64,000 nt of DNA, taken from positions 2,666,001-2,730,000 of the forward strand of contig NZ_CP065373.1 in the NCBI RefSeq assembly GCF_015710575.1, given 5' to 3'. The notes below the pieces were generated by a model, which worked only from the letters and a program-made list of their open reading frames with translations, had not been told where the DNA came from and searched no databases. The translations under genes and the position numbers were made by a program. This stretch comes from Mycolicibacterium mengxianglii. Its GTDB lineage: Bacteria; Actinomycetota; Actinomycetes; Mycobacteriales; Mycobacteriaceae. Shown here piece after piece: positions 36,239 to 56,827 of this stretch (within the stretch, counting starts at the first letter, position 1; each line of letters starts with the position of its first letter).

Positions 36239-37126
36239 TCACAGCGGGGTTATCGAATCCAAGACATACGTCCTTACCCGGCCGGTCATTGATGCGTTGC
36301 AGGTGGACTGCAGCGGATCGGTCATCTCCTCTGCGAGTACCACCTCGAGCGGCCGCGGCGCGGCGGCCAGCAAGACGCGAATTCGGTTGTCGCCGTGCTG
36401 GACATCGATAGGGGAGAAGGCTTCGATGCGGTCCTCTCCGTATTGCTCACGGGCGAAGTACTGCGCGGCTTGAACGGCGTGCGGCAGAGAAGTGCGGCCC
36501 CGCAGAAATCTGTTGTCCAGGCGCCCGTCGAGGTACAACCGCACCAATTCTGCTGCATCGGTGGAATCGACCCGGCCGTAACACAGGCCCGCGGGTAGTA
36601 CCAACATGGTGGCCGCAAACCGGTCGCCTCCCAAATGCGAGCATTCCCAAGTGAAGTCGGGGTATCGGGCCGCGATCGCGGCGGTGGCTGCCCGGCCTCG
36701 GACGGCGCAGCATTGGTCGTGTTTCCCATGGGCGCAGACCGCGACGAGCGGTGTCGAACAGACCTCGCCATCCGAGCCGTCCAGCGCAAAGTCCAAATAG
36801 TCTCCGGGCCCGTTCACCTCGCCTCGATAAAGCGCCTCACTTCCCTCACCGGACTGCGCGAGGAACCATCGCCAGCGGGCTGTCGTCGATCGACGGCCGG
36901 GGCGCCGGATCGCTGCTATCCGCATGCCCGCAGTCTCGAAGCGGCGGGCGATGGCGCGTCCCAGCTGCGGTTCGATGATGGTCGGGGAACCGAGCAGTGC
37001 TGAGTGGCCCCACGCTCCCGGCAGCTCCAAGAGCACCCAGGTCATCCCCGCCGATGCCGTCCCGTACAGCGGGTCGTTGCGGGCCAGCGATTGGTCACTG
37101 CACGGGGGTGATTTGGGGGCCGTCAT
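36239..37126 (-). CDS. Sucrase ferredoxin-like (thioredoxin-fold [2Fe-2S]) protein
   Basis: 295 residues. The C-terminal half is a thioredoxin-like ferredoxin domain: VAVCAHGKHDQCCAVRGRAA holds Cys131, Cys139 and Cys140, and WECSHLGGDRFAATMLVLP holds Cys162 and His164, which can ligate a [2Fe-2S] cluster. The N-terminal half carries WVLLELPGAWGHSAL of the sucrase/ferredoxin-like family. Its ATG overlaps the stop of the JmjC gene by 4 bases, so it is the third gene of the repeat-peptide operon. It may supply electrons to, or keep reduced, the iron of the oxygenase; that role is inferred. Confidence 0.85.
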   Translation of the reverse strand: MTAPKSPPCSDQSLARNDPLYGTASAGMTWVLLELPGAWGHSALLGSPTIIEPQLGRAIARRFETAGMRIAAIRRPGRRSTTARWRWFLAQSGEGSEALYRGEVNGPGDYLDFALDGSDGEVCSTPLVAVCAHGKHDQCCAVRGRAATAAIAARYPDFTWECSHLGGDRFAATMLVLPAGLCYGRVDSTDAAELVRLYLDGRLDNRFLRGRTSLPHAVQAAQYFAREQYGEDRIEAFSPIDVQHGDNRIRVLLAAAPRPLEVVLAEEMTDPLQSTCNASMTGRVRTYVLDSITPL

Positions 37127-38361
37127 CCCCGGCTCGTACGCGTCGGGTGTTCCGGCTGTTTTGCCGGGATCACCACAGCCTCGCGAAGCAACCGTCGTAT
37201 CAGTACCGCCGCGTCGTCCTGATCAAGCCCGGGCAGCGACGTTGCATCGGCAACGAGCCCGTGATGGAGGGCGTCAAGTGCCGGGCTGCACAGTGCCGGA
37301 AACGTGATCGTTCGGTCTGGTAGGCGGAGGACTACCCGGTCGGCGTGGTGGTCGACGTGGGCGACGAGACCGCGGCGCCATTCCACCGGGTGGAAACCTG
37401 CGTGCTCGGCGGCCGCCAGTGATTCCAACGGCCGGACAGCGACGGGTCGCGTGCGTTGCGCGTGCCGTTGTGACAACCGGGTGGCGCTACCTTCACTGAT
37501 GTCGGTAGCACGGTGCTGGACTGTGTCGGTGACTTCGGCCATCACTTTGGTTGCAATCGCCGCCATCGAGCCGCGGTCGGTGGGATCGATCCCCATCGGC
37601 AGTGAAGTCCTGAATTCGCCCACGGTGGCAAGTGTGTCCACCACGGCGTGGACGACGTCGAGGACGGTCAGCGGTGCAACGCCGATAGTCAGGTGGATCG
37701 AGGTGTTATCGAGTGCCTCGGCCGAGTGGATCCACCCCCGCGGCAGGTACAGCGAGTCCCCGGGTGCGAGCACGCGGTCGATCGCTGCATCCTCGCGGAC
37801 GCGCTCGGTGATCGCGGCGCGGTGGTCGGTCCACGGCTGTGTTGTCAGAGGATCCTGGTGTACGGGCTCGTGCACGAGCCAGCGCTTTTCTCCCTGCACC
37901 TGCAGGACGAAAACATCATGGACGTCGTAGTGTGGATCGAAACCGCGACTGGTGGGCGGGGTGATGTAGGCATTGGCCTGCGCCGGGTGCCCGATATCGG
38001 CAACCATCTCACGAACGAAGTCGATCAACGGTGGCCACAACCGGTGTAGTCCTTGCAGCACAATGGTTGCGCCAGCGGCGAATTGGGCCAGGACTTTGGC
38101 CGAGTCCACCTGGTCGGGCATTTCGGCCCCGAAGCCGGCCGGCCCCAGATAGCAGTCCCGGGCGAGCAGGTCGCCGTGTGACGCCATCCGAATGAACGGC
38201 GCGCGTACGCCACGCTCGGCGATCAGTTCATCGACCATCGGTCCCGATAGAAGGTCGCTGAAGTCCCTGGGCAGCGAACCGGACGGACTCAGCAGCGGCT
38301 GACGGCCCCAATACTGGGTCGCGAACGACCCAGCATCGGTAGCAATGCAGCGGTTCAGCAT
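37123..38361 (-). CDS. JmjC/cupin-4 domain oxygenase
   Basis: 412 residues from ATG 38361, 10 bases after the repeat-peptide stop. The N-terminal MLNRCIATDAGSFATQYWGR QPLL is typical of ribosomal-oxygenase-like proteins. The iron site is complete: His144 and Asp146 (FDPHYDVHDVFVLQVQGEKR W) and His212 (LYLPRGWIHSAEA). A C-terminal winged-helix-like region follows (ATRLSQRHAQRTRPVAVRP). Relatives hydroxylate Arg or His side chains of ribosomal proteins with 2-oxoglutarate and O2. A longer in-frame reading to 38538 only translates the repeat DNA out of frame and should not be used. The likely substrate is the peptide encoded just upstream. Confidence 0.87.
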   Translation of the reverse strand: MLNRCIATDAGSFATQYWGRQPLLSPSGSLPRDFSDLLSGPMVDELIAERGVRAPFIRMASHGDLLARDCYLGPAGFGAEMPDQVDSAKVLAQFAAGATIVLQGLHRLWPPLIDFVREMVADIGHPAQANAYITPPTSRGFDPHYDVHDVFVLQVQGEKRWLVHEPVHQDPLTTQPWTDHRAAITERVREDAAIDRVLAPGDSLYLPRGWIHSAEALDNTSIHLTIGVAPLTVLDVVHAVVDTLATVGEFRTSLPMGIDPTDRGSMAAIATKVMAEVTDTVQHRATDISEGSATRLSQRHAQRTRPVAVRPLESLAAAEHAGFHPVEWRRGLVAHVDHHADRVVLRLPDRTITFPALCSPALDALHHGLVADATSLPGLDQDDAAVLIRRLLREAVVIPAKQPEHPTRTSRG

Positions 38362-38371
38362 TGTGTGACGA

Positions 38372-38620
38372 TCACGCTGTTCCGTCGGCTCCGCCGTCGT
38401 GGCCTTCGGGATTGGAGCCGCCGTCGGCGGGACCTTCGCCTCCTGCTGTTCCGTCGGCTCCGCCGTCGTGGCCTTCGGGATTCGAGCCGCCGTCGGCGGG
38501 ACCTTCGCCTCCTGCTGTTCCGTCGGCTCCGCCGTCATGGCCTGCCGGGTTCGAACCGCCGTCGGCGGGCCCTTCGCCGCCGGCGCCTGAGGTGGAGATG
38601 TCGTCGTCTGTGAGTGCCAT
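38372..38620 (-). CDS. Repeat peptide with leader and three 23-residue units (BatC-like; putative precursor)
   Basis: 82 residues from ATG 38620 with AAAGGAT 7-8 bases upstream. A 13-residue leader (MALTDDDISTSGA) is followed by exactly three 23-residue units, each GGEGPADGGSNP-x-GHDGGAD GTA where x is Ala, Glu, Glu. There is no Cys, Lys, Arg or aromatic residue; each unit carries one His, one Asn and three Asp. I recall similar mycobacterial proteins annotated BatC without function. The stop lies 10 bases before a JmjC oxygenase gene. This is the layout of a multi-core ribosomal peptide precursor and its modifying enzyme, and Asp/Asn/His are known JmjC targets; the function is inference. Confidence 0.75.
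   Translation of the reverse strand: MALTDDDISTSGAGGEGPADGGSNPAGHDGGADGTAGGEGPADGGSNPEGHDGGADGTAGGEGPADGGSNPEGHDGGADGTA
38381..38587. repeat. Three tandem 69-base repeats
   Basis: Units start at 38381, 38450 and 38519. The first two differ at about one base; the third has diverged slightly. The unit length is a multiple of three, so copy number can change without breaking the frame. It encodes the three 23-residue units of the putative precursor. Confidence 0.9.
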
Positions 38621-39190
38621 GCTGATCATCCTTTTCGTCAAGAGTCCCATGTTGCAGCGCGGTTTCGGGCTGTAATCTCCGTGCTGGTCACGGCCAGCTT
38701 CTCAAATGACCGCGCGTTGTGGAGTTGCCGCCGCAGGCACAAGTCAAACGAGCGCCCGTATTGACCCAAGCCGCAGGGGCGAGCGACCAGCAGAGGCCCG
38801 AATCGACAGGGAGAATCTTGAGAGCAAAGCACCTGCTCCTCCAGCACTCCCGCGGTGCACCCGGGGCCGTCCACGATGGGGCGCGGGGGCGTGCTACGAC
38901 GGCGAGGGCAGGAGCCGCCCGCTTGCGGAGACCAAGGACTCGACCGGGGGATCATCGACGTCGAATCATAGGGTCCGGCAATTGAATTGGCTGGTGATCT
39001 GGGCGATACCCAGCTGCGGACTGCGATCTCGGGCGCGGCGCTGATTCGTCGTGCTCACGCGGGGCGGACACCGCGCCGGCTGCCTACCACTGCGAGCCGG
39101 CCGGCGACTTGGACACGGCCGCAGCGCTTTATGGGGAGGCTCAACACGGGGCACATTTCTCACCCGGCGAGACCACCTCTCGCTGCCTCG
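38621..39190. other. Upstream region of the repeat-peptide operon
   Basis: 570 bases without a supportable gene. The operon promoter should be here. A minus-strand reading at 38638-38763 (FDLCLRRQLHNARSFEKLAV then TSTEITARNRAATWDS) stops 18 bases before the peptide start and looks protein-like, but has no good start and no family I know. Confidence 0.45.
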
Positions 39191-55734: not shown

Positions 55735-56822
55735 TGTACTGACCACGGACGTTAGGTACGGCGTGGCGTGGTGACATGAAGAAGACCTCCGAGTGAAGTG
55801 CGAGCTGTCTAGGAACGCACCAACCCTCTCGGAGGTCTTCGTGTCCCACCGTAATGCCCCATTGTCAGAAACCGGTCGTCTGCGCCTGGCTCGTTGCGTC
55901 GTCGAAGACGGCTGGACGCTGCGCCGGGCCGCGGAGCGCTTTCAGGTCGCGGTCACCACGGCCCAGCGCTGGGCGGCCCGATACCGCGAGCTGGGGCCGG
56001 CCGGTATGGCCGATCGCAGCTCACGCCCGCACCACAGCCCGAATCAAACCCCGGCCCGCACTGAGCGACGGATCATCAAAGTCCGGGTCACGCGCAGGTG
56101 GGGACCAGCCCGAATCGGTTATCTGCTGGGCATTCATCCCTCCACGGTGCACCGCGTGCTGACGCGTTACGGGATTGCCAGGCTGCGCTGGTTAGACCGC
56201 CCGACCGGCCGGGTCGTGCGTCGCATCGAAACGGCTGCGGTTGGCGAACTGGTCCACATCGACGTCAAGAAAGTCGGCAAGATTCCCGACGGCGGTGGGT
56301 GGCGTATGCGGGGCCGTGCCATCGGGAAACGCAACTCGCAAGCTCATAAAACCGGAGTCCGCAGTAAGCATCGCCACCCGGTGCGCGGTTATCACTTCCT
56401 GCACACCGCCATCGACGCCCACTCGCGGCTGGTCTACAGCGAGCTGCTTGCCGACGAACGCAAAGAGACTGCCGCGGGGTTCTGGATTCGCGCCAACGCC
56501 TGGTTCAACCAATGCGGCATCATCGTCTCAAAGGTGTTGACCGACAATGGTTCCTGCTATCGGTCACACGCATTCCGGGACGCACTTGGTGATATCGAAC
56601 ACCGACGAACCCGCCCCTATCGGCCCCAGACCAACGGCAAGGTCGAACGCTTCCACCGCACCCTGGCCGACGAGTGGGCCTACGCCCGGCTCTACACCAG
56701 CGACACCGAACGCTGCGCCGAATACCCCCGCTGGCTGCACACCTACAATCATCACCGCGGCCACACCGCACTCGGCGGTCAACCACCCGCCAGCCGCGTA
56801 CCCAACCTCTCAGGTCAGTACA
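55735..56822 (+). mobile_element. IS481-family insertion sequence (1088 bases)
   Basis: Ends are TGTACTGACC (55735-55744) and its exact reverse complement GGTCAGTACA (56813-56822). Both are flanked by GCTAGC, giving a clean 6-base duplication at a CTAG target. One transposase gene fills the element. Intact ends, intact gene and undecayed duplication indicate a recent insertion, between the K+ channel gene and the BetI-like regulator. Confidence 0.92.
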
Positions 56823-56827
56823 GCTAG
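55841..56827 (+). CDS. IS481 family transposase
   Basis: 328 residues from GTG 55841 with GGAGG upstream. The N-terminal HTH is SETGRLRLARCVVEDGWTLR RAAERFQVAVTTAQRWAARY. The DDE core has GELVHIDVKKVG, VLTDNGSCYRSHAF and QTNGKVERFHRTLADEW. The stop codon TAG (56825-56827) lies outside the right inverted repeat, inside the duplicated CTAG target, so the element borrows its stop from the insertion site. Confidence 0.94.
   Translation: MSHRNAPLSETGRLRLARCVVEDGWTLRRAAERFQVAVTTAQRWAARYRELGPAGMADRSSRPHHSPNQTPARTERRIIKVRVTRRWGPARIGYLLGIHPSTVHRVLTRYGIARLRWLDRPTGRVVRRIETAAVGELVHIDVKKVGKIPDGGGWRMRGRAIGKRNSQAHKTGVRSKHRHPVRGYHFLHTAIDAHSRLVYSELLADERKETAAGFWIRANAWFNQCGIIVSKVLTDNGSCYRSHAFRDALGDIEHRRTRPYRPQTNGKVERFHRTLADEWAYARLYTSDTERCAEYPRWLHTYNHHRGHTALGGQPPASRVPNLSGQYS

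Follow-up and report, generated by a model that had tools for sequence, protein, structure and literature searches.

A conserved repeat-peptide, JmjC oxygenase, and ferredoxin cassette with RiPP-like architecture in mycobacteria and other Actinomycetota

INTRODUCTION

ROX enzymes are hydroxylases of histidine or arginine. The ROX/JmjC_2 protein hydroxylases NO66, MINA53, and YcfD share their fold, an HxD...H iron site, and a conserved lysine with the oxygenase described here. Among RiPP pathways, CanE β-hydroxylates aspartate in canucin A with help from CanB1 (PMC9266682); there, the lasso peptide is modified at one C-terminal Asp, and CanB1 is a separate helper protein. BipG is a JmjC RiPP hydroxylase of the biphenomycin pathway (PMC12707348). 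BipG/BpmG, to which the cupin PbsQ is related, catalyze a single tailoring step, on Orn; their clusters also encode an MNIO, a radical SAM enzyme, and a protease. Bregman et al. (2025) describe RiPP recognition element (RRE)-like folds fused to JmjC domains (PF08007), with bacterial homologs in RiPP-like contexts (PMC12710340). Thioredoxin-like ferredoxins of the Suc_Fer family with a Cx8C motif include Aim32 and Apd1, and Aim32 carries CX8C together with HX3H (PMC8482512).

Here, we analyze a three-gene cassette in a 64-kb stretch of DNA (the window). The cassette resembles CanE in that Asp of a RiPP-like peptide is the proposed target of an Fe/2OG hydroxylase, and BipG/BpmG in the proposed action of a JmjC oxygenase on a ribosomal precursor peptide. 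Unlike the biphenomycin clusters, it has the JmjC protein as its sole evident tailoring enzyme and acidic tandem repeats as its core. The window enzyme is only about 20% identical to NO66 (TM-score, ~0.7), and differs from NO66, MINA53, and YcfD in being tied genetically to a dedicated repeat peptide and a ferredoxin, with extra arginines shared among the peptide-linked members. For the RRE-JmjC fusions, the section of PMC12710340 that treats them mentions neither a repeat peptide nor a ferredoxin nor an Asp target. The cassette ferredoxin has Asp where Aim32 has the second His. We found no published description of the cassette in the open-access PMC literature, to which the search was confined.

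RESULTS

Organization of the cassette

The three genes are co-directional on the minus strand, running from 38620 to 36239 in the order peptide, JmjC, ferredoxin (Table 1). A sequence-only reading of the same DNA had described, with no strand given, an 82-residue peptide of three 23-residue units lacking Cys, Lys, Arg, and aromatic residues, followed after 10 bases by a JmjC gene that overlaps a ferredoxin gene by 4 bases. All of these features were found again: the gap from the peptide stop to the JmjC ATG is 10 bases, the overlap is 37123-37126, and the composition holds, by eye, for the 82-residue form. That form starts at an ATG at 38620 with AAAGGA upstream; an alternative in-frame ATG at 38650 would give 92 residues and has, by eye, no AAAGGA-like site. 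Tandem Repeats Finder reported a single array at this site.

TABLE 1 Features of the cassette and a neighboring transposase gene (window coordinates)
Feature	Position	Strand	Details
Precursor-like peptide, 82 aa	38372..38620	-	Acidic leader MALTDDDISTS plus 3 units of 23 aa, GEGPADGGSNPxGHDGGADGTAG
Tandem repeat array	38376..38578	-	Period 69 bp, 2.9 copies, 94% matches; Tandem Repeats Finder
JmjC_2 (ROX/NO66-like) Fe(II)/2OG-type oxygenase, 412 aa	37123..38361	-	H144/D146/H212 and K159 intact; C-terminal winged-helix-like domain, ~residues 326-399
Suc_Fer-like protein (thioredoxin-fold ferredoxin type), 295 aa	36239..37126	-	Cx8C (C131, C140), Hx3D (H164, D168)
IS481-family transposase gene	55793-56827	+	Pfam

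The genome that holds the window is a single contig of 5.96 Mb with one JmjC relative by the window query, one Suc_Fer gene, and one peptide match, which is the operon copy. The nearest named relatives are from Mycobacterium. The window neighbors examined are ordinary by Pfam (SDR enzymes, TetR and LysR regulators, an ArsP-like permease, an aldo/keto reductase, an M42 peptidase, PhoD, and the IS481 transposase), and no link between them and the cassette was found.

Co-occurrence in close relatives

The close set comprised 80 named loci (the best 80 of 177 relatives), the window locus, and 29 more, making 110 loci of which 100 are distinct. The JmjC gene is immediately preceded by the repeat peptide in 110/110, 109 by script and one (L051) by eye around a run of N, and the ferredoxin lies just downstream on the same strand in 110/110. 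In L007, L053, L070, and L109 the script detected the peptide even though a frame change or a run of N interrupts the array. The frame changes within the arrays of L007, L053, and L070 reflect either assembly error or decay, as does a JmjC gene split across two frames in L135 (genome G206).

Across 301 family genomes, a JmjC match of any strength was seen in 98, and in 87 it was strong (E up to 1e-78). The sequence-only reading would have been contradicted by a peptide gene found mostly in the absence of the JmjC gene, and the opposite is the case: 81 of the 82 HMMER peptide matches fall in strong-JmjC genomes, and the remaining one, in G046, proved spurious, an unrelated Arg-rich frame. The association is strong (Fisher p, 6e-65), a value that is indicative only, since the genomes are related. 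Six strong-JmjC genomes without a HMMER peptide match belong to one genus, in which five have a divergent upstream Asp-repeat peptide (GPADGG...HDGGADGG) and the sixth is cut at a contig end. An Asp-rich repeat peptide is likewise seen in G255, where the JmjC gene is fragmentary. Peptide, enzyme, and ferredoxin are inherited together, and the proposed operon of multi-core peptide, JmjC enzyme, and ferredoxin is supported.

Co-occurrence in distant Actinomycetota

A JmjC match was present in 59 of 396 genomes from across the phylum. From the family and phylum matches we picked a subset of 50 further loci, five of them of the near type (L131-L135). An upstream Asp-rich peptide, mostly with visible repeats, was found in 33, none in 15, and two (L117, L182) were not assessable; four of the 33 (L118, L167, L168, L180) had been overlooked by the detection script and were recovered in other inspections of the same loci. 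The ferredoxin follows downstream on the same strand in 30 of the 33 peptide loci versus 0 of the 15 peptide-less ones. L167, L180, and L187 have peptide and JmjC gene with no adjacent ferredoxin, and since the genomes G499 and G572 have no ferredoxin anywhere by PF06999, it is not essential everywhere.

The distant peptides take several forms: EGPADGGATPGQHDGGADGSA in L167, PTEDDENLDAPGEHSQDTGDE in L187, DADGTDGDAT-like in L173, L181, and L185, DADAADAD-like in L179 and L184, and SADGTDQGV.GGTYGPRDA in L180. Peptide sequences diversify widely; Asp is retained, and the acidic leader is retained in most. On a tree of 62 JmjC proteins (L117, L135, and L182 excluded; several long branches, with some placements unsure), the peptide label requires 5 changes versus 13.7 for shuffled labels, and five changes mean that gains and losses occur.

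In six of the 15 peptide-less loci (L125, L127, L130, L171, L190, L191), the upstream region contains an acidic stretch; the leader motif described below is absent from all six, as it is from the peptide-bearing controls L118 and L168. Three loci stand out individually. L171 encodes a close JmjC relative with neither repeat peptide nor adjacent ferredoxin, and has an acidic nonrepeat open reading frame ending 20 nt before the JmjC gene. In L130, a weak JmjC relative stands beside a different precursor-like frame with LEPLQRW, LEPLDRWD, and LDPLERW repeats, which overruns the predicted JmjC start by about 22 nt. On a Pseudanabaena galeata plasmid (L200), a JmjC relative with 30% identity lies near a LanM lanthipeptide synthetase gene.

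The JmjC enzyme

An AlphaFold2 model of the window enzyme (60 sequences) reached a mean pLDDT of 94.0 and a pTM of 0.88. The best 40 Foldseek matches were NO66, MINA53, YcfD-type, and YxbC-type (Bacillus subtilis) oxygenases, at about 20% identity and a best TM-score of about 0.7, and a profile search against solved structures likewise gave NO66, MINA53, and YcfD as the best PDB matches. The protein matches the ROX/JmjC_2 family profile and carries the HxD...H iron triad. Its model adopts the NO66 (ROX) fold, and the iron site is complete. The His144-x-Asp146...His212 site of the sequence-only reading is present and is invariant in 47/47 aligned relatives with a peptide, as are H148, Q154, G157, K159, W161, and H223.

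Comparison of these 47 peptide-linked proteins with 15 others (L117, L135, and L182 excluded) showed R4, R53, Q103, R107, Q128, R329, and R390, among other residues, to be much commoner in the peptide-linked set; R107 occurs in 5/15 and R390 in 3/15 of the peptide-less proteins.

The leader and its putative reader

The peptides carry a leader fitting an L-x-D-[DE]-[DEQ]-[IM]-x-T-like motif in 79/80 near and 23/33 distant cases, against shuffled means of 0.05 and 0.14, for an expression composed after inspecting the peptides. Ten of the 33 distant peptides fail it, L166 and L194 being close variants by eye. In a leaderless clade (L116, L118-121, L168, L170), R389 of the enzyme is lost in 6/7 (to E or G) and R350 in 7/7; in leader-bearing proteins, R389 is kept in 38/40 and R350 in 29/40, 7 of the 11 R350 variants being Lys. 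Because it is confined to one clade, the loss of leader and R389 counts as about one event. The pattern, from this single clade, fits binding of the leader by the C-terminal domain of the JmjC protein.

In a model of the peptide and enzyme of Antrihabitans cavernicola (L073) fused as one chain, this domain has strands at 419-423, 426-431, and 434-439, then a helix at 440-450, a 3-residue helix, and a helix at 465-477; in the window model it has no clear middle helix. RREs must show strands and then helices, according to Bregman et al. (PMC12710340), and the modeled domain resembles them in this order. No PqqD/RRE model matched the C-terminal piece of the JmjC protein in Pfam. Structure prediction of the leader with the enzyme had been put forward in the sequence-only reading as a check, and it gave no support for docking: in the fused L073 model, the peptide block is disordered (pLDDT, 31-43), with no confident placement.

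The failure to dock is one of several observations that would suit a peptide that is not a substrate at all, being instead a small acidic disordered partner (an iron carrier or inhibitor) of an enzyme that in reality acts on some other protein, such as a ribosomal one. Relatives of the enzyme are named ribosomal protein L16 Arg81 hydroxylase or NO66 in their sources, solved JmjC relatives act on ribosomal proteins according to their structure titles, and no conserved neighboring protease or exporter was found. We consider this explanation unlikely, though the strongest of the alternatives. The copy number of the units varies (2, 3, 4) as in multi-core precursors, a motif-bearing leader stands separate from the repeats, and JmjC proteins without a peptide mostly lack the specific arginines R107 and R390.

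The repeat units and the likely target residue

Unit statistics were drawn from 77 of 81 loci, leaving aside L007, L053, and L070 for frame changes in the array and L051 for its N run (the L109 array also contains an N run). These yielded 211 Mycobacteriaceae-type units, with two per locus in 20/77 loci and three in 57/77; L107 and L108 have four. A first pattern fixed most Gly and Ala and two Asp positions; a recount with no position fixed gave the identical 211 units, in which 18 of 21 positions hold the same residue in at least 205. Over the last 21 codons, 2926 pairwise comparisons among the 77 loci gave means of 7.90 silent codon differences versus 1.54 residue-changing ones. The repeat units are under strong purifying selection, which rules out a chance open reading frame or repeat artifact.

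The sequence-only reading had left His, Asn, and Asp open as targets, and the units now lean toward Asp. In the 211 units, D14 and D18 are present in 211 each, D5 and N9 in 210 each, and H13 in 205. A wider sample of 248 units was collected from 120 of 165 database proteins (those listed), with a pattern that fixes the flanking Gly and Ala and leaves Asp free; D5, D14, and D18 are Asp in 248, 246, and 248, and position 13 holds His in 203 units, the other 45 having Q, R, N, S, T, A, K, or V. All 33 distant cores contain Asp, at 9-39% as counted (the lowest values come from frames read too long), and His and Asn are both missing from 11 of the 33. Of the candidate side chains, only Asp is shared by all the peptides compared, and it is the likely target because it is conserved where His and Asn change or are lost; C3-hydroxylation of Asp is the best-supported candidate chemistry.

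Hydroxylation of the His or Asn of each unit, with Asp a mere spacer, would follow the precedent of NO66 and MINA53 on His and of FIH on Asn. The histidine hydroxylases NO66 and MINA53 are the nearest solved relatives, and N9 and H13 are nearly constant in the Mycobacteriaceae-type unit. The replacement of H13 in 45/248 units and the absence of both residues from a third of distant cores that retain Asp nevertheless make such a target improbable.

Asp-Gly is the classical succinimide-prone pair, and in the window-type unit all three conserved Asp are followed by Gly in 211/211 units. Even so, a different oxidation of repeat Asp or Gly residues (desaturation, backbone cleavage, cross-linking, or aspartimide or isoaspartate formation at Asp-Gly) is very improbable, since in many deeper relatives Asp also precedes Ala, Ser, or Thr by eye, and ROX enzymes are known as hydroxylases, as the titles of solved structures also indicate. 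The precedent for cleavage is that α-ketoglutarate-dependent RiPP HEXXH enzymes can cut the backbone (PMC12636437).

The ferredoxin

The Suc_Fer-like protein matches the family profile and has the Cx8C motif of bis-histidinyl [2Fe-2S] ferredoxins, with D168 in place of the second histidine of the Hx3H ligand pair. Hx3D rather than Hx3H was found in 168 of 171 motif-bearing loci, a count that includes duplicates and two stand-alone copies, and C131, H133, H136, C139, C140, C162, H164, and D168 are invariant in 82/82 aligned rows, the window being counted twice. A stand-alone Suc_Fer protein in G435 keeps Hx3H. In the L184 ferredoxin (the same place as L164), the second ligand position is Cys, not Asp. 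No solved structure gave a convincing match to the ferredoxin (best E, 0.3).

Genomic setting

In 114 loci with flanks, single-linkage clusters of all open reading frames of at least 90 aa revealed no fourth gene recurring in more than 22 loci; the seven largest clusters lie mainly over the cassette as shadow frames, and the 22-locus maximum comes from the five largest. No conserved exporter, protease, or regulator was found beside the three genes in these 114 loci. In architecture, the cassette presents a precursor with leader and core beside a modifying enzyme, as RiPP loci do; conserved genes for leader removal or export are absent beside it in the same 114 loci. Not all RiPPs encode leader removal or export locally.

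No iron box was apparent in 77 upstream regions, where the best matches to an IdeR consensus had 6 to 10 mismatches. A mobile cassette was considered and set aside: there was no phage match, and the 134 matching plasmid records are all below 60% identity (25-31% for the best 15 listed). No small repeat peptide is annotated in two inspected plasmid records, PLSDB annotation being incomplete. PADLOC gave no match to a defense system, and no Rfam family reached its gathering score. A search for additional precursors by DNA pattern lacked specificity, with 17 matches versus 11 for a reversed control. Listed peptide homologs, where named, are nearly always called "hypothetical protein" and once "BatC protein," so the peptide gene is easy to overlook.

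DISCUSSION

The cassette is real, widespread, and conserved, and is RiPP-like by architecture. The reading we favor, and think probable on the comparative sequence evidence, is a RiPP-like system with a multi-core peptide, many Asp residues of which would be C3-hydroxylated by the JmjC enzyme. This ribosomally made peptide would be modified by its own JmjC oxygenase: arginines of the C-terminal domain would grip the acidic leader (L-x-D-D-D-I-x-T), and the disordered repeats would enter the active site for C3 hydroxylation of several Asp side chains on each peptide, by analogy with the hydroxylation of His or Arg by ROX enzymes. The ferredoxin may keep or restore the JmjC iron as Fe(II). The product would probably be an intracellular hydroxy-Asp-rich peptide that retains its leader, because no conserved exporter, protease, or regulator was found beside the cassette. 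Its likeliest role, as a metal buffer or ligand, is the weakest step of this account.

More tentatively, and as a possibility we would rate somewhat below even, the whole phylum may hold exporter-free multi-core peptides that a leader-guided NO66-like oxygenase, served by a dedicated Hx3D ferredoxin, converts to poly-hydroxyaspartate acting as an intracellular metal ligand or an oxygen- or iron-responsive polymer.

If the favored reading is true, the JmjC winged-helix domain would serve as a leader reader, and the published hint of RRE-like folds in JmjC proteins would become directly testable. A wide family of hydroxy-Asp peptides would be defined, and a bacterial relative of the human ribosomal oxygenases NO66 and MINA53 would come with a built-in, easily expressed substrate.
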